From: Rodentibacter mrazii
GTDB taxonomy: Bacteria; Pseudomonadota; Gammaproteobacteria; Enterobacterales; Pasteurellaceae
Assembly (NCBI RefSeq): GCF_001998825.1
Contig: NZ_MLHG01000014.1
Location: forward strand, 1 to 34,542
Reading direction: 5' to 3'
Length of the DNA stretch: 34,542 nucleotides
In this document: positions 9,995-21,354 of the stretch, one piece after another
Position numbering within the stretch: position 1 is the first letter of the stretch
How the letters are laid out: each line of letters opens with the position of its first letter
Notes under the pieces: generated by a model
What the model was told of the DNA's origin: nothing
The model's input: the letters and a program-made list of their open reading frames with translations, nothing else
The model's database searches: none
Position numbers and translations under genes: made by a program

Positions 9995-10072
9995 TTAACT
10001 TTCCTAAAATATCAGAATAAAAAACCGCAGAAAATAGCAGTTTTTTAGAAAATATCAATAACAAATAGACGT

Positions 10073-11680
10073 TTATTCTTTGTTTTCTTGCGGTATTAAC
10101 GCCAAGCGCGACAAATCCACGCCATTATTTAATAATTCTACGTTTGGCATAGTTTTGTTAGCTTTAGCGGAAAGATCTTTAAAGCGTTCTACTTTGCCAA
10201 CCAAGCCTTGCTGTCCTACCAACGCCGTTACCGTGCTGTTATATTGATTACTCACGGTAGAAAGCGTATTCCCTAGTTTATTGAGGCGCTCAGCCACCAA
10301 ACAAATTTGGTTATAAATCTCACCGGCTTTTTCGGCGATTTCTTTCGCTTCGGCATTACCACGTTCAATTCGCCACAGGTTTGCCACGGTACGCAAAATA
10401 GGCATAAGGGTTGTGTGCGATACCATAATGACATTTTTCTCATAACCGTAATTGAACAAGTTCGGATCTAATTTTAACGCTTCAATATAAGCCGGCTCTA
10501 CCGCAATAAACATCAACACAAAATTCGGGCTACGCATACCAATTAAGTTGCTGTAATCTTTTTTGTGCAAATCATCAATATGATTTTTCAATGCCTTAAT
10601 ATGCTCACGAAGCAGGCGTTCACGCTCAAAATCATCCTCAGAATTGACCGCACTTTCATAGGCGATGAGGGACATTTTGCTGTCGATAATAATGTTTTTG
10701 TCATCAGGGAGGTTTAGGACAAAATCCGGATAATTACGCCCGCCTTGTTCATCTTTAAAATGGGCTTGCGCATGATAATGGACGTTTTCAACTAAGCCGG
10801 CTAGCTGTAAAGCCCGTTCCAACTGCACTTCGCCCCAATTACCAAGGGTTTTCTTTTCACCTTTCAGGGCAGAAGTCAGATTGTTCGCCTCTTGCGACAT
10901 ACTTAGCCCGATTTCCAACACTTTCTTGATTTCCGCCTCTAAACCGGCATTGCCTTTTAGTGATTCCGAGTGAATTTCATTGACACGTTTTTGAAAACCT
11001 TCAATTTGTTCACGAAAAGGTTTAAGCAGCGTTTCCAATGCGGTTTGGTTGGTTTGATTAAAAGATCTGCTTTTTTCATCTAAAATACGGTTGGCGAGAT
11101 TTTGAAATTCAATCCCAAGTTGTTGTTTAGATTGTTCAATATTTTGTTGTTGCTCGGCAAAATGCTTTTCTTTTTCCGCCAAGGTGGTTTTCAAACCGGT
11201 CAGTTCTTGTGAAAGTGCGGTCAATTTTTCCGTTAAATTTTGTTGCTCTTGTTCTTTACGCAAGAGATGGCTCTGGCTTTGCTGTAGTTGGTTTTGTAAG
11301 CTCTCAGCCTGTGCGGAGGCTATGCCAAAACGTTCTTTTAATGCCGTGATTTGTGTGGCGATTTGCTCATAACGAAGTTGTGACTCATCCAATTCTTTAG
11401 AAAGATAGGCGATTTTTTCATCACGTTCGGTCAAGCGAATTTGTAGCCCCTCACTTTCTGTTTGGGCTTTAACGGTTTGCTGTTGCAAAAGATTTTTTTG
11501 TTGATTGAGCAAATCAAAGCGTTCGGCAAGTTGATTAAAATCAAGGTTGGTTTTATTTAAATCTTGTTGTAATTCTTGGGCATCACGCGTACGGCGAGCC
11601 AGTAGAAAACCGAGAACAATTAAAAGAAAAAGCGATATGCCAAGGAGTGTAAGAAAAGAGGGAGTAATCCAAGTTATCAT
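10073..11680 (-). CDS. rmuC: RmuC family DNA recombination protein
   Basis: RmuC is a membrane-anchored protein linked to limiting recombination at inverted repeats. This copy of about 535 residues has one N-terminal membrane helix (about 7-30), a long coiled coil rich in Glu and Gln (about 35-220), and the RmuC nuclease-like domain after about residue 260 (ALKGEKKTLGNWGEVQLERAL, PDFVLNLPDDKNIIIDSKMSL, ANLWRIERGNAEAKEIA). I chose the ATG at 11680, with GAGG upstream; the longer ORF to 11713 adds a poor leader. Two uptake signals lie inside the gene. It borders the restriction island, whose inverted repeats are the kind of DNA RmuC is thought to act on. Confidence 0.9.
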   Translation of the reverse strand: MITWITPSFLTLLGISLFLLIVLGFLLARRTRDAQELQQDLNKTNLDFNQLAERFDLLNQQKNLLQQQTVKAQTESEGLQIRLTERDEKIAYLSKELDESQLRYEQIATQITALKERFGIASAQAESLQNQLQQSQSHLLRKEQEQQNLTEKLTALSQELTGLKTTLAEKEKHFAEQQQNIEQSKQQLGIEFQNLANRILDEKSRSFNQTNQTALETLLKPFREQIEGFQKRVNEIHSESLKGNAGLEAEIKKVLEIGLSMSQEANNLTSALKGEKKTLGNWGEVQLERALQLAGLVENVHYHAQAHFKDEQGGRNYPDFVLNLPDDKNIIIDSKMSLIAYESAVNSEDDFERERLLREHIKALKNHIDDLHKKDYSNLIGMRSPNFVLMFIAVEPAYIEALKLDPNLFNYGYEKNVIMVSHTTLMPILRTVANLWRIERGNAEAKEIAEKAGEIYNQICLVAERLNKLGNTLSTVSNQYNSTVTALVGQQGLVGKVERFKDLSAKANKTMPNVELLNNGVDLSRLALIPQENKE

Positions 11681-11899
11681 AATGAGCCTCAAAATTTTTG
11701 CCAATTTTACCACATTGGATGAGGTCTCTCGAATGGAAAACGATTTAAGTATTGACCTAGCCTTTATTTTGGTAAGTTATGTCTCATATATCCAGTTTGC
11801 TTGTCTATGGTGTAATAAAATTTCATTATTTTTATTTACAATAGCTCCATAATTTAGGGGAAATGCGAATGAATGTTCACGATTGTTTGTAAAAAACTA

Positions 11900-11925
11900 A
11901 CGCTTGGGAACAGAGGAAGTTGGGG
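11900..11925 (+). repeat. R1 repeat, copy 1 (left cassette)
   Basis: This 26-base R1 sequence, from ACGCTTGGG to AGTTGGGG, codes for AWEQRKLG. It is identical in inverted orientation at 13884-13909 and at 16736-16761. Confidence 0.9.
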
Positions 11926-12349
11926 GATTTGGCAAATTTTTCTAAAGGTAGTGGTTATTCAAAATCTGATTTAACTGATTCAGGACACCCAATCATTTTA
12001 TATGGTCAGCTATACACAAATTATCAAACCGAAATTAGTCAGGTTAATACTTTTGTATCAAATGATAATAAAGCGGTAAAAAGCCAAGGTAATGAAGTAA
12101 TTGTTCCTGCCTCAGGTGAGGCGGCTGAAGATATCGCTAGAGCGTCAGCTGTTACAATACAAGGAATTATTATTGGTGGTGATCTAAATATCATTAAAAC
12201 GAATCCAAATATTAATTCCGTATTTTTAGCATTAAGTATTTCAAATGGAAGTCAACAGAAATTATTAGCGTCTAAGGCTCAAGGTAAATCTGTGGTTCAT
12301 CTTCGTAATAATGACTTGAAAGAAGTTCTTCTAACTTATCCCAAAATCC

Positions 12350-12420
12350 AAGAACAACAAAAAATCGGCACATTTTTCACCGCACTTGATCGCTACATCA
12401 CCATTCATCAGCATAAGTGA
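12350..12420 (+). repeat. R2 repeat, copy 1 (left cassette)
   Basis: This 71-base sequence is perfectly identical, in inverted orientation, to 13386-13456. It codes for EQQKIGTFFTALDRYITIHQHK plus the stop, and contains a perfect uptake signal at 12379-12387. Confidence 0.92.
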
Positions 12421-12433
12421 TATTAGCGTAAAG

Positions 12434-13360
12434 TTAGCTTAAGTTTGACAATGAACGCATCACAAGATCAATGTCTCTATTTTCCAATTCTTGAATAATA
12501 TGCAAATAGGTTTTTTGTGTTGTTGTCATATTTGAATGCCCTAATCGTCTGGCAACACTTGCGATAGAAACGCCTGCAAATAATAGCAGTGAGGCATGGG
12601 TATGACGCAAACCATGTAATGAAATAATCGGAACGTTCGCTTTTTTACATCGGCGAGTCAGAATGTCATTCACGGTAGAGTTGAAAATCTTTTGTTTAAC
12701 AAAAATTGGCTGATCTTCAGGTTTACCTTTAATTAAATCAGAAAATTGAATAATAGTTTTCCAGTCAAGCGGAATTTTACGCACAGAGGAACGGTTCTTT
12801 GTGGGTAAAAAGCCGCCTCCCTCTTTATAATTCCAAGTTTTATTAATTGACAATGTTTGATGTGAAAAATCAAAATCTTTCGGAGTAATCGCTAATGCTT
12901 CGGAAAAGCGCATTCCCGTTTTAGCAATCAATAAAATAAACCAATCCCAATTAAGTTCTTTTGTTAAATTTAACTTTGTAATCAGGGTATGTAATTCAAA
13001 TTGGTTTAAATATTTGGGCTTTTTTACCCGTGGTGGGCGACCTTTAATAATAGCCTTTCGAGTGGGATCTCTGCTTAATAACCCCTCATCAACAGCATCT
13101 AAAATTGCTCCTTTTAATTGATGATGAAAATCCATCGTTGTTTGTCGTTCGTGGTAACGGGCATAATCATTGAGTAACTTTTGATAAGTAATGCGATTAA
13201 GATCGCATAATGATAATTTAGGAATCAATCGTTTAAGCCATTCCAGTGTAAGTAAATACTTCGACATCGTCACTTTTCTAATTGCACCCTCTTTATAAAT
13301 ATGAATCCAATGCGAATAGTATTGATGAAATAGCGCTTGCTTTGAAGTTACCTCATTCAT
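12434..13360 (-). CDS. Tyrosine recombinase of the hsdS cassette element
   Basis: This 308-residue protein has a SAM-like N-terminal core-binding domain (about 5-105) and a catalytic domain with a complete active site: R151 (TGMRFSEAL), K188, H249-x-x-R252 (LHGLRHTHAS), H275 (RLGHSN) and nucleophile Y285 (TTTQKTYLHI). It looks like phage- or transposon-type integrases rather than XerC/D. I chose the ATG at 13360 because of an ideal AGGAG; an in-frame extension to 13459 would run through the right cassette. Both R2 copies lie within 30 bases of its ends, so it probably acts on R2, R1 or both. I see no strong promoter of its own, so expression may depend on read-through. Confidence 0.92.
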   Translation of the reverse strand: MNEVTSKQALFHQYYSHWIHIYKEGAIRKVTMSKYLLTLEWLKRLIPKLSLCDLNRITYQKLLNDYARYHERQTTMDFHHQLKGAILDAVDEGLLSRDPTRKAIIKGRPPRVKKPKYLNQFELHTLITKLNLTKELNWDWFILLIAKTGMRFSEALAITPKDFDFSHQTLSINKTWNYKEGGGFLPTKNRSSVRKIPLDWKTIIQFSDLIKGKPEDQPIFVKQKIFNSTVNDILTRRCKKANVPIISLHGLRHTHASLLLFAGVSIASVARRLGHSNMTTTQKTYLHIIQELENRDIDLVMRSLSNLS

Positions 13361-13385
13361 AATGAATCTCCTATAAGAATATATT

Positions 13386-13456
13386 TCACTTATGCTGATG
13401 AATGGTGATGTAGCGATCAAGTGCGGTGAAAAATGTGCCGATTTTTTGTTGTTCTT
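13386..13456 (-). repeat. R2 repeat, copy 2 (right cassette)
   Basis: This is a perfect 71-base inverted partner of 12350-12420, with an uptake signal at 13419-13427. It lies 25 bases upstream of the recombinase start codon. Confidence 0.92.
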
Positions 13457-13955
13457 CATCTAATTTAGGGATAGTCAATTTTGTTTTAAAAAAATCTTCT
13501 GTAGCAATATTTAACAATCCGTGGTTTCTTGCTCCTTCAGCAGCGTGCTTAGAAATTTCTCTGTACCAGTGTGTTGTTTCATAATATTTAGTTAAAAAGT
13601 CACTATTCACATTTATCGGTTTAAATAGAATATAAAGTGTTGATAATACTCCCTTTGGATACGAATCTAATCGCTTAATTGCACCCCATGGAAATCCATT
13701 AGAATAGGATTTGTTATATGCAAATTCACCTTTCTCTATTAAGTAATAGCCTGACACATCCTTACTAGCAACAACCTTATTAAAAAATTCGTTTTGATCC
13801 ACTAAACCATATTGAGCTGAAATAGTTAATGGTAATGTTGATTCTAGGTTTTTATTTTTTCTTGTAATTCGTTGTACCAAATTCCCCAACTTCCTCTGTT
13901 CCCAAGCGTAAGTTCTTTTATCAAAGTGCGGTGAAAATTTACCGATTTTTTCCAC
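13386..13955 (-). CDS. hsdS: Half-length hsdS TRD cassette, right (probably silent)
   Basis: The ORF encodes 189 residues: a 16-residue leader, R1 (AWEQRKLG), a TRD of about 130 residues, and R2 ending in HK and a stop. A full HsdS has two such units plus a helical spacer, so this is a half subunit. The only upstream start is GTG at 13955, which touches the T-run of the hsdM terminator and has no ribosome binding site, so I doubt it is expressed. The leader (EKIGKFSPHFD) is itself a diverged copy of R2, a scar of earlier recombination. If made, half HsdS proteins can sometimes work as dimers. The recombinase gene follows 25 bases downstream. Confidence 0.7.
   Translation of the reverse strand: MEKIGKFSPHFDKRTYAWEQRKLGNLVQRITRKNKNLESTLPLTISAQYGLVDQNEFFNKVVASKDVSGYYLIEKGEFAYNKSYSNGFPWGAIKRLDSYPKGVLSTLYILFKPINVNSDFLTKYYETTHWYREISKHAAEGARNHGLLNIATEDFFKTKLTIPKLDEEQQKIGTFFTALDRYITIHQHK
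13884..13909 (-). repeat. R1 repeat, copy 2 (right cassette)
   Basis: This is an exact 26-base inverted copy of 11900-11925. It marks the outer edge of the predicted invertible unit. Confidence 0.9.
13921..13951 (-). repeat. Diverged R2 remnant at the 5' end of the right cassette
   Basis: The bases encoding EKIGKFSPHFD closely follow the core of R2 (AAAAATCGG, then TTTTCACCGCACTT), including an uptake signal at 13924-13932. It suggests another cassette once lay between hsdM and the present right cassette. Confidence 0.6.
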
Positions 13956-13983
13956 AAAAAAAGAGGCTTTTGGCCTCTTTTTT
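13956..13983 (-). terminator. Strong bidirectional terminator after hsdM
   Basis: AAAAAAGAGGC (13957-13967) and GCCTCTTTTTT (13973-13983) pair over 11 bp with a five-base loop, with A- and T-runs on the two sides. It starts just after the hsdM stop codon and ends at the GTG of the right cassette, so the expressed hsd operon appears to stop here. Confidence 0.85.
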
Positions 13984-13984
13984 G

Positions 13985-15598
13985 TTATGGAAGTTCAATT
14001 CCTAGCAATTTTAGCTGTTCATTGATTTCTTTTTCCAATTGTTTTATTTCTTGCTCATCTTGATTGAGTTGTTTTAGCACCTCGTTAATATCTATTTCTT
14101 CCTCCTCCTCGAACGTATCGACATAACGAGGGATATTGAGGTTGTAGTCATTTTCAATAATCTCTTCAATGGAGGCAACATAGGCATATTTTTCAACGTT
14201 TTGACGTGATTGGTAGGTATCAATAATTTTCTGAACTTGTTCATCGGTCAAACGGTTTTGATTTTTGCCTTTTTCAAAATCTTGGCTTGCGTCAATAAAC
14301 AAAATATCCTTATTTTTACGGTTCTTTTTAAACACCAAAATCGTAGTGGGAATACTTGTTCCATAGAATAAATTCGCCGGTAGACCAATCACTGCATCTA
14401 AATAGTTTCCTTGTGCATTGGTGGTGTTATCGCCAATCAATGCCTTACGGATTTTCCCCTCAGCGGCTCCTCGGAAAAGCACGCCGTGCGGTAGGACAAT
14501 TGCCATGGTGCCTTGCTCGCCTAAGTGGTATAAGCTATGCAAAATAAAGGCAAAGTCTGCTTTTGAGGCTGGTGCTAATACGCCAAAAGGTTGGAAACGG
14601 GCATCTTTTAATTTGCGTTCGTGATTATCCCAGTTGGCAGAATAAGGCGGATTTGCCACCACTGCATCAAAACGGCATAACGGCTGATCAATCCCTTGAG
14701 CATCAATTCCATCCGGCCAATCGCTTTCCAAGGTGTCGGCATTGGAGAGCGTCATATTTTTATAAGAGACACCGTGCATCATCAAATTCATACGCGCAAG
14801 GTTATAAGTGGTAGTGTTCAATTCTTGCCCGTAATATTTAATTGGTTTTGATTTTGGCAATTCGTTCCCTACGGTCAATAGTAACGAACCTGAACCCATT
14901 GTTGGGTCGTAAACCAAGAAATTATCTTGGTTATCTGCCACATCAAGGGTGACTAATTTAGCCAAAATTTTTGAAACTTGGTGAGGCGTATAAAATTCAC
15001 CGCCTTTTTTACCGGCATTGGCGGCAAATTGTCCGATCAAATATTCATAAATTTCACCGAGAATATCACGACCATTGTCGTCTTTATATTCAATCTCATC
15101 CACTAATTTCACAATATTGCCTAAAGATTTTGCGCGTTCATTAGTAGAATTTCCTAAGCGGGAATCTCCTAAATTCAGATCATTAAAGACACCACGAAAA
15201 TCAAGCACCGCCTCTTCATTTAAATTAGCGTTTTGGTTGAAGTTATCGAATAAGGTTTGGTAATCACTTGGCATCACCTCGGCATTATGGATTTTCTGCA
15301 TTAATGAATCCCAAGTATCTTCAGGATTTATGGCATAGCCGAGGCTGGCTGAAATATCTTCTAGATAATCTTGTAATTCTTCACCCGTGGCTTGAGTTAC
15401 ATAAGCCTCATTGACACTTTGCCCCGGTGAAATCTCTAAAATATGATTATCGACCAAATATTGTTCTTGATGTTTTGATAAATAACGATAAAACATAAAG
15501 GCAAGAATATAATTTTTATATTCTGAAGCATCCATTGTGCCACGTAGCTCATTTGCCATTGCCCAAAGTTTACTGGTGATAGTTTGTACATTGCTCAT
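13985..15598 (-). CDS. hsdM: HsdM type I DNA methyltransferase subunit
   Basis: HsdM transfers a methyl group from S-adenosylmethionine to adenine N6 at sites selected by HsdS. This 537-residue protein has the N-terminal HsdM helical domain (about 5-140), SAM-binding motif DPTMGSGSLL (231-240), and catalytic motif IV NPPYS (316-320). The GKKGGEFYTPHQVSKILAKLV segment is typical of the family. The C-terminus is an acidic coiled coil (DEQEIKQLEKEINEQLKLLG) that would pack against the HsdS helices. GAGGAATC precedes the start. It is the last gene before the hsdM terminator and lies 42 bases after fic. I see no simple-sequence repeat tract in the gene. Confidence 0.96.
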   Translation of the reverse strand: MSNVQTITSKLWAMANELRGTMDASEYKNYILAFMFYRYLSKHQEQYLVDNHILEISPGQSVNEAYVTQATGEELQDYLEDISASLGYAINPEDTWDSLMQKIHNAEVMPSDYQTLFDNFNQNANLNEEAVLDFRGVFNDLNLGDSRLGNSTNERAKSLGNIVKLVDEIEYKDDNGRDILGEIYEYLIGQFAANAGKKGGEFYTPHQVSKILAKLVTLDVADNQDNFLVYDPTMGSGSLLLTVGNELPKSKPIKYYGQELNTTTYNLARMNLMMHGVSYKNMTLSNADTLESDWPDGIDAQGIDQPLCRFDAVVANPPYSANWDNHERKLKDARFQPFGVLAPASKADFAFILHSLYHLGEQGTMAIVLPHGVLFRGAAEGKIRKALIGDNTTNAQGNYLDAVIGLPANLFYGTSIPTTILVFKKNRKNKDILFIDASQDFEKGKNQNRLTDEQVQKIIDTYQSRQNVEKYAYVASIEEIIENDYNLNIPRYVDTFEEEEEIDINEVLKQLNQDEQEIKQLEKEINEQLKLLGIELP

Positions 15599-15640
15599 TT
15601 TTGATTCCTCTATTAAAAATTCTGTTTATTTTAACCGCAC

Positions 15641-16204
15641 TTATTCGGCTTGTTCGTAATAATAAGATTGTTCAATCCCTTTCAAGAAAATTTCACGATC
15701 ATCAATGCGATCCGTTAAAGCGTTTTGTAATAAAAAACGGATTTCCAAATCATTAATTGGACTTCGTTCCATGGCTTGTAAATACAATTTTTTATCCACT
15801 TTCTGCCAATCTACGACTTTTTTTAAATTTTTCTTAAAAATTAAATCCAACCAAATACGGGTAGAACGCCCGTTCCCTTCTAAAAACGGATGGATAATAT
15901 TCATTTCAATATATTTTTCAATAATTTGCTCGAAGGTTGATTCAGGCATTTTTTCTACCGCACTTAATGCCGGTTTTAAATAGAGTGCATTGGCAAAGCG
16001 AAAATGCCCTTTGGAAATATTTAATTCACGAATTTCGCCGGCAAAATCATAAAGCCCTTGAAATAAATAGCGGTGAATGTCTTGCAAGCCTTTCGTTGTC
16101 CCAACTTCGACGTGATGAATATCGCCGGAATCATAAAGTCGATAGGCATTTTCTTTGCTTAAACGGTCAATTTCTTTGGTATATTCAATGGAATAGGTCA
16201 TCAT
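15641..16204 (-). CDS. fic: Fic domain AMP-transferase (class III-like)
   Basis: Fic enzymes usually transfer AMP from ATP to a hydroxyl on a target protein. This 187-residue protein carries the complete motif [12 protein letters not shown]: catalytic H105, phosphate-binding G110-N111-G112-R113, and R116. Overall it strongly resembles the small class III Fic protein of Neisseria meningitidis as I remember it ([32 protein letters not shown]). The C-terminal inhibitory helix SYYYE is present (S180, E184), but the next residue is Gln where the motif S/TxxxE(G/N) expects Gly or Asn. It lies between hsdS and hsdM, ten bases after the hsdS stop, with AAGGGAAA before tandem ATGs at 16204 and 16201. 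No separate antitoxin gene is visible, which fits class III. Confidence 0.93.
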
Positions 16205-16213
16205 TTTCCCTTA

Positions 16214-17410
16214 TTAAACAAACATTTGTTGTAACAGTGATTTTTTCAATTTTTTCACATTTTCTAGCTTACGCTGATGAATGGTGATGTAGCGATCAAG
16301 TTCGGTGAAAAATGTGCCGATTTTTTGTTGTTCTTTGGGATTATCTGACACTCTAATAGATATTTCTGATAAATCGTTTCCATTTATTGCGGGATAACTT
16401 GTTCCTGTACACTTATCTAAAACTCGGCGAACAAAATTATCTTCTTGTAATCGGCTAAATAAAAAATAACCATTTATTTGGGGTCTTAACTGAGCATAGC
16501 CAGTGGAAAATACAAAATCTTTATCTTCAAAATCAAATAGATAATTATTTTTTTGATATGGTCTAACTGTTTGATAAAAAATATCTCCTTTTTGTGCTAG
16601 CCGTTGTGCTCTTGAGGGGGCAGAATATTTATTTTCAGTTTTATAGCCAAGCAATTCCGTTCCACTAACAGATTCTAGATCAACATATTTAAATGTATCT
16701 GGCAAAATTGATTTAGGATTGAATTTAGCTAACTCCCCCAACTTCCTCTGTTCCCAAGCGTCAGTAAATTCGGGAAAACGAATTTCCGGAAATTTTTGAT
16801 CATTTTTCGGAAACATTTTTTGTAGGAGCGATTTTTTCAATTTTTTCACGTTTTCTAACTTACGCTGATGAATGGTGATGTAGCAGTCAAGTGCGGTGAA
16901 AAATGTGCCGATTTTTTGTTGTTCTTTATTTTGAGGAATGAAAATAACTAAATTTTTAACAATTTCTGCTGATAAATTTCCCTGTCCACCCTGTAAATAA
17001 CTTGAAACGATATGTGATTTTTTACCTTTTAGCCATTGAGTAATAAATTCTGAAGAAAAATTCTCATGTGGTTTAATGGCAAGAATTGCTTGATTAATTG
17101 CTCCATTTATCAATGACCTAGATACTTCTCCACTTGTCGCTCCATAAAGAGCATAGAGAATATCGCCCTTTGAAACTAACTTGGCTGATGAATTATTTAA
17201 TCCATCTTCTGTAATAAATAGTTCCGTGTTTTCTGAACCAATTTCACCTGAACGGATGAATGGAATATTGCCACCATAATAATTTGGGATGGATACACTT
17301 GGCGTACCACCAGAATAAGAATTTGTTATCTTCCCCAGTTTCCTCTGTTCCCAAGCGTCAGTAAATTCGGGAAAACGTAATTTTGGTACAAGTCTTTTTT
17401 CGTTATTCAT
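16214..17410 (-). CDS. hsdS: HsdS type I specificity subunit (expressed, two TRDs)
   Basis: HsdS selects the bipartite DNA target for both HsdM and HsdR. This 398-residue protein is a tandem of two units. Each starts with RFPEFTDAWEQRKLG (residues 12-26 and 211-225), continues through a variable TRD (about 27-162 and 226-358) and ends with KEQQKIGTFFT(A/E)LD.YITIHQRKLENVKKLKKSLLQ (from 162 and 359), which forms the spacer helices. AAGGAAA precedes the ATG and the gene lies within the hsdR-hsdS-fic-hsdM line. At DNA level each TRD is bounded by R1 and R2, the same repeats that frame the two outlying cassettes, so this gene is the presumed recipient of shuffled TRDs. Confidence 0.95.
   Translation of the reverse strand: MNNEKRLVPKLRFPEFTDAWEQRKLGKITNSYSGGTPSVSIPNYYGGNIPFIRSGEIGSENTELFITEDGLNNSSAKLVSKGDILYALYGATSGEVSRSLINGAINQAILAIKPHENFSSEFITQWLKGKKSHIVSSYLQGGQGNLSAEIVKNLVIFIPQNKEQQKIGTFFTALDCYITIHQRKLENVKKLKKSLLQKMFPKNDQKFPEIRFPEFTDAWEQRKLGELAKFNPKSILPDTFKYVDLESVSGTELLGYKTENKYSAPSRAQRLAQKGDIFYQTVRPYQKNNYLFDFEDKDFVFSTGYAQLRPQINGYFLFSRLQEDNFVRRVLDKCTGTSYPAINGNDLSEISIRVSDNPKEQQKIGTFFTELDRYITIHQRKLENVKKLKKSLLQQMFV
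16268..16335 (-). repeat. R2 repeat, copy in hsdS unit 2
   Basis: It matches 66 of 68 bases of R2. One change destroys the uptake signal (AAGTTCGGT instead of AAGTGCGGT) and turns Ala into Glu in the TALD motif. Confidence 0.85.
16736..16761 (-). repeat. R1 repeat, copy in hsdS unit 2
   Basis: This is an exact 26-base copy of R1 in the same orientation as the right cassette and inverted to the left cassette. Confidence 0.88.
16859..16926 (-). repeat. R2 repeat, copy in hsdS unit 1
   Basis: It matches 65 of 68 bases of R2 and keeps the uptake signal (16889-16897). With the other hsdS copy it forms a direct repeat that could delete one TRD. Confidence 0.85.
17333..17358 (-). repeat. R1 repeat, copy in hsdS unit 1
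   Basis: It matches R1 at 24 of 26 bases. The two differences (AC for GT) still encode AWEQRKLG. Confidence 0.8.
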
Positions 17411-17584: not shown

Positions 17585-20500
17585 TTATTCCCTCACAAAT
17601 TCATCCGCCAGTTCATAGATTGCATTACGCAACTGATTGCGATATTTCATTTTGGTCAGTTTTTTTACCTCATCATTTTGGGCAAGTTCCGGATAGGTGA
17701 TGCCCGCTTGTTTGATGAGTATCGTGAGCTGATCATTGTCATCTAAATCTTTTTGTTGAAATTGGTGTTTCGCAAAAAGTTGACGAAGTTGCGCGTTTGT
17801 TAGAATTTCTGTTAGCCCCCATTGCAGGCGGAAATCCAAAAATTGTTGGTCTTGGCTTGCGTAATTTGCCTGTTCGACAATGGAAACCCCGTCTTGTTTA
17901 AATGCATCTTTTAATTTGAAAAAACCTTTGGTGATCGCTTTCGCCGCACGGCTAATTCGACTTGCAAAACTACGATCTTCCAATCCATTGGCAAATTTTT
18001 CCAATTCTTTCTGAGTCTCTTTCGCTTTTTCGGTTTCACCTGCTTCAATTTGTTGGAGTAAGGTGGTGATTAACTCTGTTAAATAATCATAGTTAATTTC
18101 AACATCTTTCACGTGGGTCATTTTTAGCTCTATTTGCATCACCGGCACGTTTCGACTTTTTGCTAAATGGAGCTTGAGTTCGTTGGTCAAGGTGTTGGTG
18201 AGCATACTTTCTTCTTCACTATTCATGCCGAGTTCGTGAATCAGTTTATCAGGGTTTTCATAATCAAAGCCGGTGATTTCACCGTTTTCATTTTCTACAG
18301 AATATTGTTTTATTTTGGCGATATTTGCAGTATAGGTGCGTAATTGCTCAAACATTTCCCATTTTTTCGTTTCAGATGGTGGTAACTGAGTAAAGTTATC
18401 CGTTATTTCTCGGAGTGTTTTTACGATATTTTTTGTCTCATTGAGCAATTCTTCGTATTTTGGTGCGGTAATATTGTCTTTAATATTATTCGCTTTTCGC
18501 TCTTTATCAGATAATTTGGCAGAATCTTTATTGGCATAGATGGACAATGCTTCATTCATTAAATTTTCATTATGTGCAGGCCAGCGATAATTGATAATAC
18601 GTCCCCAAGGTTTTTCCCGCATATCTGAAACTCGGTTTGTTCTTGAATAGGCTTGAATGAGTCCGGCACCTTTTAAAGTGCGGTCAACATAGAGCGTATT
18701 TAACTCAGGAGCATCAAACCCTGTGAGCAGTTGATCGACTACAATGACAAGATCGAGATACTGTTTGTCTGCCGCGGTGCGATTTAATCGACTGGTGACA
18801 TCTTGGGTGTATGCCGATACCTCAGACATCGTGAAATTGGTGTTAAATTCTTTGTTGTAGTGCTGAATCGCTTCAAATAGTCCTTGATTGGTTTCCAGCA
18901 TCGTGTCGTTATTGCTTGTATTTTGGCTAAAAGTAACGGCGACTTTAAGCAAAAACTCGCCATTTTCCGACCGCGCTTTATTAACACGTTGGAACTCACG
19001 AAAATACATCATTGCCATTGGCGTGCTGGCTTTGCCACCACCGACGTGGGTGGTCAGAAGGGCATTATATCGTCCTTGATTGCGTTTGTTGTCCCAATTT
19101 GAACGGTTTTTCCAATGTTTGAAAATATCGGCGACGACCAATTTTACGTGTTCTTCATTTTCATCGTAGAAACTCGGTTCAATATTGTCATCCATATCTT
19201 GTTGGGTTAAGTTGGCAATTTTCGAGGCAATTTGTTCTTCGCTCCAATCCGGATATTTATGGCGATAGAATTTCGGAAGATGATCTTCTTTCATACTTTT
19301 TTCGCTAATTGTGGTTTCAAAATCCACTTTAAACCCCAAGACATTACGATCTGCAATCGCTTCTCTAATGGTATAGGCGTGCAAGAGTTCTCCAAAAATA
19401 TCTTCAGTTCGTAAGCCCTTTGTGGTTTCATCAAACATTGGCGTGCCGGTATAACCAATCCATGCGGAATGTTTAAATGCTTTTTGAATGGCACTGAAAT
19501 TTTCGCTTCCGGTGGAACGGTGGGCTTCGTCTACAATAAAGACAATATTTTTTTCAGGTGCTTTGAAAGAGGCACGTTTAACCAAGGTATCCAGTTTCTG
19601 TACAGAGGTAATAATGATTTGACTACCTTTGCTGTGTAATTTGCGATTTAAATCCGTGGTGTTGTTGGTATCAAGTACCGTGCCTAAACTGTCTTCGGTC
19701 GCATCAGGATCATAAGCACGATAATTCTCATTGGTTTGAGTGGTTAATGCAATACGATCGACTAGAAACACGACTTTATCTACTTTTGGCGAACGGCTTG
19801 CGAGCCAAGCGGTTTTAAAACTTGTGATGGTTTTGCCTGAGCCAGTGGTGTGCCAAATGTAGCCGAGTTTATTTAACGCTTGATCAAAATCTGCCCGTTT
19901 TAATTTATCCATTACACGGCGTGTGGCATAAACTTGATAAGGGCGCATCACTTTTAGAGCTTGCTTGTTTGGTGTACCGTCTAAAATCATATAGTTAGTT
20001 GCCATTTGATGCGCCATAGGAATACTCAGCATAGAATCGGCAAATTCTTTCCATTTATAAACAGGTTTATTGTCCGATTGGCGTTGCCAGTTGAAGGCAA
20101 AATCTTTATTAAAACGTTCTGCGGTAGTATTCGCCATATATTTCACGTTATTAGGTGTGATAGCCACTAAGATTTGGAGTGTAGAAAAAATATCACTATA
20201 TTGATTTTCTGCGATGTATTGATGCATTTGATTTAAGGCTTCATTAATATCCCGCGTTTCTTTTTTTTCTTCAATTTGAATAATTGGTAAGCCATTAATT
20301 AATAATGTCGTGTCAAAACAACGATTCTTTTTACCGGCAATGACCGCCGGACGTTCAATTTGATTCACAATTTGATATACCGTATCACCTGCGCCGATCT
20401 GTTTTTGGTCAAATACGGTTAAAAAAACATGTCGATCATCATCTAAATCAATCTCAATTTGTGATACCCCATTTGTGCCATAAAGAAATTGCCCTGCGGC

Positions 20501-20785
20501 ATAAGGGGTGGATAAATTGGAGATCTTGCGTTTAACTTGCGCAAATTCCACCGCACTGAGAGGACGATCTAGGGTTTTTTGGTTAAGTTTTTCTAAAATT
20601 TGTTTGAAATTTCCCCATAAGTCTTCGGTTGTTTTTATATTAGGTTCATAATGCCAAAGTTTAGTGCGCACGATATAGTCTGCACTTGGTTCAGAAATCA
20701 CATTTTCGGTAGCAGTGATCGTACCGGTACAAAGATATTCAATTAAGGCTTTTTCAAATTTTAATTCAGGCATTTTATTTGTCAT
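17585..20785 (-). CDS. hsdR: HsdR type I restriction endonuclease subunit
   Basis: HsdR is the motor and nuclease of the restriction complex: it translocates DNA using ATP and cuts unmodified DNA far from the site. This 1066-residue protein has an N-terminal PD-(D/E)xK nuclease (D158, then E172-E-K174 in IIQIEEKKE), helicase motif I TTGSGKT (313-319), DEAH box (419-422), motif III YTGTPMF, and motif VI-like QAYSRTNRV. Length and order suggest the EcoR124 (type IC) branch. Its ATG overlaps the stop of the upstream HsdS-like gene by four bases (ATGA), indicating translational coupling. One uptake signal lies within (18676-18684). It appears intact. Confidence 0.96.
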   Translation of the reverse strand: MTNKMPELKFEKALIEYLCTGTITATENVISEPSADYIVRTKLWHYEPNIKTTEDLWGNFKQILEKLNQKTLDRPLSAVEFAQVKRKISNLSTPYAAGQFLYGTNGVSQIEIDLDDDRHVFLTVFDQKQIGAGDTVYQIVNQIERPAVIAGKKNRCFDTTLLINGLPIIQIEEKKETRDINEALNQMHQYIAENQYSDIFSTLQILVAITPNNVKYMANTTAERFNKDFAFNWQRQSDNKPVYKWKEFADSMLSIPMAHQMATNYMILDGTPNKQALKVMRPYQVYATRRVMDKLKRADFDQALNKLGYIWHTTGSGKTITSFKTAWLASRSPKVDKVVFLVDRIALTTQTNENYRAYDPDATEDSLGTVLDTNNTTDLNRKLHSKGSQIIITSVQKLDTLVKRASFKAPEKNIVFIVDEAHRSTGSENFSAIQKAFKHSAWIGYTGTPMFDETTKGLRTEDIFGELLHAYTIREAIADRNVLGFKVDFETTISEKSMKEDHLPKFYRHKYPDWSEEQIASKIANLTQQDMDDNIEPSFYDENEEHVKLVVADIFKHWKNRSNWDNKRNQGRYNALLTTHVGGGKASTPMAMMYFREFQRVNKARSENGEFLLKVAVTFSQNTSNNDTMLETNQGLFEAIQHYNKEFNTNFTMSEVSAYTQDVTSRLNRTAADKQYLDLVIVVDQLLTGFDAPELNTLYVDRTLKGAGLIQAYSRTNRVSDMREKPWGRIINYRWPAHNENLMNEALSIYANKDSAKLSDKERKANNIKDNITAPKYEELLNETKNIVKTLREITDNFTQLPPSETKKWEMFEQLRTYTANIAKIKQYSVENENGEITGFDYENPDKLIHELGMNSEEESMLTNTLTNELKLHLAKSRNVPVMQIELKMTHVKDVEINYDYLTELITTLLQQIEAGETEKAKETQKELEKFANGLEDRSFASRISRAAKAITKGFFKLKDAFKQDGVSIVEQANYASQDQQFLDFRLQWGLTEILTNAQLRQLFAKHQFQQKDLDDNDQLTILIKQAGITYPELAQNDEVKKLTKMKYRNQLRNAIYELADEFVRE

Positions 20786-21354
20786 TTTGCGCTCGCTTTT
20801 TGTAATTGTGCCAATACAAGTTGTCTTTCAAGATGGGCAACTCGTTGTTTCAGATAGGTCAATTTTTGTTGTTTAAGGTAGATATTTCCTATAAGACGCT
20901 GTTTTGATAATGCTGGTAACTTGGGTAATTTGAGAGATTTAAGCTGTTTTGTCGTATATTTCAGCACTTGAGAGCCTTGTAAACCACAGGATAATTGTTT
21001 GTGAATACTCTGATTTTCGTTTAATAAATATACCAAATAACCCTGGTCAATCTGTGATTGTGGTATTAACTTGAGGTAATTTTGTGTATATAACAACTGA
21101 TGATGCCACTCTCTGACTTGAGCGGTTTTTCCTGAAATTAAACTAAATACAACATCACCGGCAGAAAGGAGGCTAGTAATCCGATCAAAAGTTCTTATTT
21201 CTTTAGGTGAAATAGGATTATTTGATAGATATAGATCTTGTTCAAGATGGGCTTGGGAGTAAAAAGTATAAATGGGAGCATTTGTATCCATCGTTTCAGT
21301 TATGCGGAATTGGGCTTGACCGCCACAAATTTCCACTATATCGTTCAATTTCAT
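20782..21354 (-). CDS. Single-domain HsdS-like protein preceding hsdR
   Basis: The 190-residue protein looks like one half of a type I specificity subunit: a TRD-like N-terminal part (residues 1-150, with AGDVVFSLISGKTAQVREW and QVLKYTTKQLKSLKLPKLPALSKQRLIGNIYL) followed by a helical Lys/Gln-rich tail (about 155-190). It lacks the R1 and R2 sequences of the hsdS cassettes, so it is not part of the shuffle. It is the first gene of the hsd operon, has a strong promoter, and its stop overlaps the hsdR start (ATGA). It could be an accessory S subunit, a regulator that occupies HsdM/HsdR, or a TRD of a different system. The function is not established here. Confidence 0.7.
   Translation of the reverse strand: MKLNDIVEICGGQAQFRITETMDTNAPIYTFYSQAHLEQDLYLSNNPISPKEIRTFDRITSLLSAGDVVFSLISGKTAQVREWHHQLLYTQNYLKLIPQSQIDQGYLVYLLNENQSIHKQLSCGLQGSQVLKYTTKQLKSLKLPKLPALSKQRLIGNIYLKQQKLTYLKQRVAHLERQLVLAQLQKASAK

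Follow-up and report, generated by a model that had tools for sequence, protein, structure and literature searches.

A probable phase-variable Type I restriction-modification locus of Rodentibacter mrazii with a tyrosine recombinase between two putative silent hsdS donors

Type I restriction-modification (R-M) systems that vary phase with the help of a linked recombinase are a known kind, and a switch in such a system alters the entire methylome and the specificity of phage restriction in a single step. The accessible parts of the published reports describe several of them. In Listeria monocytogenes CC8/ST8 (LMR479A_0528-0532), hsdS sequences invert at agcttgggaacagcgt and ctatcgctcttcatcagcgtaagttagat, the integrase gene lies between two hsdS genes, and four configurations occur among strains (PMC4783014, 2016). 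The pneumococcal tvr/SpnIV locus with its recombinase TvrR has repeats of ~18 and ~70 bp with a common core of ~11 bp, rearranges by excision and reintegration via circles, occurs in shortened forms and carries a Doc orthologue that restrains the recombinase (PMC6265443). The cod locus of Streptococcus pneumoniae, with the recombinase PsrA, has three repeat pairs within three hsdS genes and undergoes inversions and excisions of hsdS parts; its site IR1 is 15 bp long, and action at longer repeats relies on IR1-like sequences inside them (PMC7096588, PMC4948785). Inverting Type I loci with a recombinase have also been reported in Actinobacillus pleuropneumoniae and Mannheimia haemolytica (PMC7394358). 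In the DoMo system of Helicobacter pylori, which has the plan x-TRD1-y-x-TRD2-y (TRD, target recognition domain), a TRD may occupy either slot and its movement is ascribed to recombination at these repeats (PMC3077401). Here, we describe a locus on the contig NZ_MLHG01000014.1 of Rodentibacter mrazii (assembly GCF_001998825.1; 34,542 nucleotides, the whole of which is called the window below). With a probability of roughly 0.8, we consider it to be a phase-variable Type I R-M locus in which a dedicated tyrosine recombinase swaps TRDs between an expressed hsdS gene and two silent donors.

Four modules, each consisting of a TRD between two repeats termed R1 and R2, span positions 11896-17410. 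Two of them lie within the intact two-TRD hsdS gene (16214-17410, minus strand; an open reading frame with a domain match), which we take to be the expressed copy. Its slot 1 is bounded by R1 at 17325-17363 and R2 at 16858-16926, and its slot 2 by R1 at 16728-16766 and R2 at 16268-16335, all on the minus strand and all delimited, like the donor sites below, by repeat comparison. The other two modules are single-TRD cassettes that converge on the tyrosine recombinase gene (12434-13360, minus strand; 308 amino acids from its ATG; Phage_integrase, 2.5e-22). Donor 1 (11896-12420, plus strand; Methylase_S, 1.3e-13) has its R1 at 11896-11934, with the core TTGGGAACAGAGGAAG at 11904, and its R2 at 12350-12423, and ends in HQHK and a stop codon. 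Donor 2 (13386-13955; Methylase_S, 7.4e-07) has its R1 at 13877-13915 and its R2 at 13383-13456, all on the minus strand. The order along the minus strand is a single-TRD hsdS-like gene, hsdR, hsdS, fic, hsdM, a terminator-like hairpin, donor 2 and the recombinase; past the latter come donor 1 on the plus strand and then rmuC. The initial annotation had rightly recognized R1 and R2 on either side of all four TRDs. It did not remark that donor 2 is direct and donor 1 inverted relative to hsdS, or that the segment expected to rearrange includes hsdM (13985-15598, minus strand; TIGR00497, 413 bits) and fic. Donor 1 is taken to be silent because its first listed start codon (TTG at 11920) sits behind the R1 core. 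Donor 2, situated behind the hsdM terminator, is probably silent as well, though a GTG at 13955 opens its frame.

R1 is a block of 25-26 bp, ACGCTTGGGAACAGAGGAAGTTGGGG, of which the window holds four copies (the slot-1 copy ends in AAACTGGGG). Its core, TTGGGAACAGnGnAAG, precedes the TRD, and the R2 core, (A/C)TTCATCAGCnTAAG, follows it. The donor copies of R2 form an inverted repeat with 73 of 74 positions identical, including the perfect 71-bp run described previously, and the hsdS copies match the donor R2 at 97% over 68 bp and 96% over 69 bp. For donor 1, the alignments with the hsdS copies extend over 68-80 nt at 90-97%, the first 40 bp being identical to the slot-1 R2. An inverted repeat of 20 bp or more without a mismatch, the criterion used in PMC7394358, is shared by donor 1 and the expressed hsdS. 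In contrast to these nearly identical repeats, the four TRD bodies differ, as had been claimed, and comparing them gave no match at E <= 1e-6 that covers 60% or more of the shorter sequence.

Both cores encode conserved segments of HsdS, and one explanation of the repeats is protein conservation only, the recombinase being an unrelated prophage remnant. The codons speak otherwise. We searched for the R1 protein motif by amino acids, with the codons left free, in 85 sequences comprising the window, 80 recombinase loci (the best 80 of 495 relatives) and four more. It was found in 91 copies in 49 of the 85 sequences, which come from Pasteurellaceae, Alcaligenaceae, Bacillota and Bifidobacterium. 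Across these phyla, E is encoded by GAA in 91/91 copies, Q by CAG in 90/90 and K by AAG in 89/91. The residue before the R1 tryptophan varies (A, D, S, T, V), yet its third base is T in 87/91. For comparison, at the positions of the recombinase where E, Q and K are conserved (5, 8 and 15 columns, respectively, in 80 sequences, one of 81 having been dropped for a stop), the mean modal codon fraction is 0.68, 0.56 and 0.68 and the maximum 0.78. R2 was found in 78 copies in 42/85 sequences, with TTCAT invariant and CAGCGTAAG present at 70-98% per column. Judged by their codons, R1 and R2 are under constraint as DNA sequences, which the initial annotation had not noticed. Protein conservation does not account for these frozen synonymous positions or for the retention of R1 and R2 by donors that are unable to give a full HsdS, and hsd loci are where relatives of the recombinase are found, so that we regard this explanation as practically untenable. 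The right arm, CAGCGTAAG in its commonest form, is common to R1 and R2, and the bases preceding it differ. A shared arm with different centres would restrict pairing to R1 with R1 and R2 with R2.

The recombinase has the complete R-K-H-R-H-Y active site attributed to it earlier, namely R151, K195, H249, R252, H275 and Y285 (counting from the ATG at 13360). In an alignment of the window with 79 relatives, these residues are invariant across the 80 sequences but for the lysine (79/80). The start codon needs correction: it is most likely the ATG at 13358-13360 behind a GGAG, outside R2. Among the loci listed, the closest named ones belong to R. trehalosifermentans, R. genomosp. 1 and R. sp. Ppn85, with a protein identity of 96-98%. 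The recombinase tree places the window in one group (100/100) with Rodentibacter, Histophilus, Actinobacillus and Pelistega. Volucribacter stands apart from this group, the surrounding sequences are mostly from Bacillota, and the deeper branching order is poorly supported. The recombinase of R. ratti (10001-10906 of its locus) groups with Actinobacillus and not with the other Rodentibacter, while the locus is at the same chromosomal site, which suggests that the locus was replaced by transfer.

The recombinase and the R1 sites go together. The recombinase was detected in 21 of 140 Pasteurellaceae genomes at E <= 1e-50 and the R1 pattern TTGGGAACAGNGNAAG in 15, of which 13 carry the recombinase (Fisher p 2.6e-11, uncorrected for kinship). 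This pattern has 45 sites in the 140 genomes, and for 40 of these a recombinase gene lies no more than 10 kb away; as the reversed-pattern control has a single site, the R1 sites are not due to chance. Of the remaining five, three belong to genomes that have the recombinase on a different contig, and two to genomes (G042 and G127) without a recombinase match at E <= 1e-50. Moreover, hsdM or hsdR is present in 43 of the 44 recombinase loci that have at least 2.5 kb on both sides (56 over all 80 loci). A distant DNA-level search of E. coli genomes for the recombinase gave no match. As an association test, the Listeria-type R2 pattern CTTCATCAGCGTAAG was dropped, as it occurs in 2/140 Pasteurellaceae genomes, and the window group has A for its first C.

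The initial annotation considered the arrangement unfamiliar. This did not hold, and by gene order the layout is not unique to the window. The succession hsdR-hsdS-fic-hsdM followed by donor-recombinase-donor recurs in R. ratti (L010), where it occupies the same chromosomal place, in Histophilus somni (L008), Pelistega suis (L009) and Actinobacillus sp. GY-402 (L011), and two loci of another genus (L138, L139) have the same layout without fic. For H. somni, the order specificity subunit, HsdR, Abi, specificity subunit, Fic, M subunit, integrase, specificity subunit is listed in the accessible part of a 2011 report (PMC3339403). Convergent TRDs flank the recombinase in 6 of the 80 loci and Fic is matched in 10, including those of Paenibacillus and Sporolactobacillus. 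The TRD motif search misses divergent TRDs, and the converging-donor layout appears to be a minority form as far as the motif can tell.

The relatives also hold traces of rearrangement. Two Enterococcus raffinosus plasmids, one from Er676 (L165) and one from F162_2 (L166), are collinear and 98.4-99.98% identical over the flanks and the recombinase, which is 65% identical to that of the window. Between them, the hsdS slot-1 TRD and the first TRD of the inverted donor have been exchanged with the intervening recombinase unflipped. The breakpoints of this swap lie inside ACGATTGGGAAC and CCTTCATCAGCGTAAACTTGACTTATTAAA, and the R1 identity involved is ~12 bp. In the five Rodentibacter loci, the recombinase is on the same strand as rmuC in the window, L006 and L010, whereas it is on the opposite strand in L005 and L007, i.e. 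two of the five are flipped. Nine loci were compared for the orientation of the recombinase to hsdM: the two genes run in parallel in five (the window, L010, L028, L137, L138), and they are antiparallel in the other four (L008, L009, L011, L139). In three loci, the slot-1 TRD is repeated in the direct donor (466 bp, 100%, in L009; 517 bp, 99.8% with one mismatch, in L028; 500 bp, 100%, in L138), and the copies end at R1 and R2. No such copy was found in six other loci tested. Finally, the L007 locus of the Rodentibacter genome G126, between rmuC and hsdR, has an hsdS N-terminus with a single TRD that continues via R2 into the recombinase and donor 1. Both fic and hsdM are missing at this locus, and the genome has no hsdM match at E <= 1e-50. 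The absence of fic, hsdM and one TRD matches what excision between direct repeats is predicted to leave behind.

Fixed sites and swapping bounded by R1 and R2 are hence found in the relatives in the form of the sites themselves, a swap, copies, flips and a deletion. The earlier claim that TRDs are shuffled by the linked recombinase is well supported by these rearrangements, and its basis is the relatives rather than reads of this strain. In R. mrazii, the recombinase would be the agent of the exchange, which would proceed in steps and in part via a circle, and its activity would change the methylome.

Several draft assemblies touch on the same point. The contigs of G125 and G130 end inside R2, and the recombinase is at most 200 bp from a contig end in 21 of the 80 loci. 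Mixed configurations may be the reason; 70-bp repeats alone can break assemblies. The genome G127 has an hsdR nearly identical to that of the window; its hsdS, at 1-682 of contig C37 (L151), is cut by the contig end ~110 bp past R2, and neither hsdM nor the recombinase has a match in G127 at E <= 1e-50. This is either another deletion form or an assembly gap. The L007 locus has an extra open reading frame between hsdR and hsdS (11756-12736, minus strand), which is absent from the window and, by its look, may be an Abi-family gene; an Abi gene stands at the same place in the H. somni list. Plasmids of Ligilactobacillus salivarius, tried as a configuration test, were uninformative either way. 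By annotation, six 213-kb and two 169-kb records have a reduced locus (one short hsdS, an N-6 methylase gene and an integrase) with one arrangement per group, and two 124-126 kb records have an integrase and no hsd gene in the stretch examined.

Alternatively, RecA homologous recombination or gene conversion could move the TRDs, either inside the chromosome or by means of transforming DNA, with the recombinase playing a minor part. Simple reciprocal recombination gives swaps, and the copies in the three relatives therefore need unequal sister-chromosome exchange or gene conversion. TRDs similar at 87-97% identity occur across species, the slot-1 TRD of the window being 86.7% identical to the slot-2 TRD of H. 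somni. In addition, 18 of the 20 R2 copies in the Rodentibacter, Histophilus and Actinobacillus loci contain ACCGCACTT, which we take to be the Haemophilus-type DNA uptake sequence, against 0 of 19 copies in seven other loci. In the window, it is found inside R2 at 12379, 13419 and 16889, and its presence there could favour TRD cassettes in transformation. All three observations would fit such an origin. Homology alone, however, leaves the freezing of R1 codons across phyla unexplained, as well as the fact that the R1 pattern tracks the recombinase gene and that 43 of the 44 well-covered recombinase loci are hsd loci. The ~12 bp of R1 identity in the E. raffinosus swap is also short for RecA, which needs longer homology. 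On balance, movement by RecA seems quite improbable to us.

The preferred reading, exchange by the recombinase at R1 and R2, has points against it. The three TRD duplications are copies and not swaps, and all evidence of rearrangement comes from comparison between strains or species. The counted R1 and R2 copies are related and not independent. The exact R1 pattern is absent from 8 of the 21 recombinase-bearing Pasteurellaceae genomes, and a Mycoplasmopsis cynos locus (L168) with a recombinase 65% identical to that of the window has two R2 cores in hsdS (at 10110 and 10740), whereas the pattern used finds no R1 core there. In the window, the common arm of R1 and R2 is imperfect: it reads CAGAGGAAG in the R1 core, where 58 of the 91 copies overall have CGT in mid-core, and CAGCATAAG in the donor R2. 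Furthermore, recombinase-independent exchange at pneumococcal hsdS repeats is described in the accessible parts of two reports (PMC6620402, PMC6265443).

It is also conceivable that the shuffler was once active and is now frozen in this strain, the donors and the recombinase persisting without exchange. The R2 core of the donors differs from that of hsdS (CAGCATAAG versus CAGCGTAAG), and three of the six Rodentibacter genomes with the hsdR of the window have no hsdM match, two of these (G127 and G130) having a locus cut by contig ends. Such decay is hard to reconcile with an intact recombinase with all its catalytic residues, donor R2 arms identical at 73 of 74 positions, nearly identical R1 copies, and open reading frames in hsdR, hsdS, hsdM and fic. 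We therefore consider a frozen locus unlikely.

If exchange by the recombinase takes place, R1 would recombine with R1 and R2 with R2, and an R1 exchange together with an R2 exchange would replace one TRD and keep the reading frame. If donor 1, the inverted one, takes part, the first exchange would invert the fic-hsdM segment. With the direct donor 2, it would excise a circle containing fic, hsdM and at least one TRD, the loss of which would give the L007 deletion form. The second exchange would rebuild the operon around the new TRD. An exchange between the donor copies of R2 would flip the recombinase only, whereas one between the donor copies of R1 would flip the whole donor-recombinase-donor cassette, turning the direct donor into an inverted one. 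The locus thus predicts particular junctions, a deletion product and a recombinase flip.

A more far-reaching proposal, which we advance as no better than a tentative possibility, is a cassette-exchange machine common to Proteobacteria and Gram-positive bacteria. Two heterospecific sites embedded in HsdS codons would allow one recombinase to put any of the four TRDs in either slot, which, if true, would give 12 ordered pairs of different TRDs, or 16 if repeats are allowed. Since the inverted or excised segment carries hsdM and fic, each hsdS swap would pass through a state with the methyltransferase and Fic genes uncoupled from the operon or on a circle. This raises the question of how switching avoids self-restriction when the methyltransferase gene sits in the rearranging segment. 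Doc and Fic belong to one superfamily. By analogy with the Doc orthologue of the pneumococcal tvr locus, Fic could act as a guard or brake of switching.

The fic gene (15641-16204, minus strand) encodes a protein adenylyltransferase of the NmFic family (NF046029, 305.4 bits versus a cutoff of 230), which corrects the previous assignment. Its product also matches PDC-S04, a phage-defence candidate model, and its C-terminal SYYYEQ resembles what we presume to be the autoinhibitory motif of class III Fic proteins. The hairpin behind hsdM (13945-13990, minus strand) was identified by folding (-18.2 kcal/mol, z -5.45) and is not among the consensus terminator-scan matches. Terminator-like hairpins on the antisense strand of R2 folded no better than shuffles in the two stretches tested, and we claim no role for them. 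On the far side of hsdS, hsdR (17585-20785, minus strand; domain match) overlaps by 4 bp a single-TRD HsdS-like gene (20782-21354, minus strand; domain match), a homologue of which lies beside hsdR in L008, L009, L011, L028/L136, L137, L140 and L147.

A literature search, which missed many subscription papers and covered others in their accessible parts, found no description of a single-TRD donor pair around a recombinase with hsdM and fic in the rearranging segment as a shuffling system, or of R1/R2 codon freezing across phyla. For restriction-modification in Rodentibacter, it returned one paper, whose title concerns Vibrio. New here are the DNA-level constraint on R1 and R2, the association of R1 with the recombinase, the E. 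raffinosus swap, and the copies, flips and deletion in the relatives. The R1 and R2 site code would permit such systems to be found from sequence.

Compared with the described systems, the window appears to be a variant of the known phase-variable Type I kind. The accessible part of the H. somni report gives its loci as gene lists without mention of shuffling; it records strain 129Pt as lacking hsdM and having a full-length hsdR and two truncated hsdS genes (PMC3339403), a state that resembles the L007 deletion form. The DoMo system is similar in that R1 and R2 flank both slots of the window and the slot-1 TRD is 87% identical to a slot-2 TRD of H. somni. It differs in that the accessible text describes no dedicated recombinase with surrounding donors (PMC3077401). 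The tvr locus shares the tyrosine recombinase and two repeat types with a common core. A possible product of direct-repeat excision comes from a relative, the L007 locus of G126. According to the part of the tvr report available, its repeats all have one orientation, its TRDs keep the N or C position, and a phd-doc pair lies upstream of the recombinase. In the window, donor 1 is inverted and there is no phd-doc pair, with a lone NmFic-type fic between hsdS and hsdM and with hsdM inside the rearranging segment. With cod, the likeness is a tyrosine recombinase with a short specific site, as judged by the published description.

The Listeria system has a recombinase amid oppositely oriented hsdS sequences, as does the window, and its sites agree with R1 at 13 of 16 bases and with the slot-1 R2 at 23 of 29; TTCATCAGCGTAAG is identical, and the donor R2 core is one base off. 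A Listeria innocua plasmid with both agcttgggaacagcgt and ctatcgctcttcatcagcgtaagttagat encodes a recombinase 63.6% identical to that of the window. The difference lies in the arrangement. The Listeria recombinase is between two hsdS genes (in L. innocua, one adjoins hsdM and the second is complete), and the accessible text names no fic, whereas in the window two single-TRD donors surround the recombinase beyond hsdM and fic. What the window has in common with the Listeria CC8 and PsrA kind is hsdR, hsdM and a two-TRD hsdS, a linked intact recombinase of the same family as that of L. innocua, and site cores at the borders of the modules.

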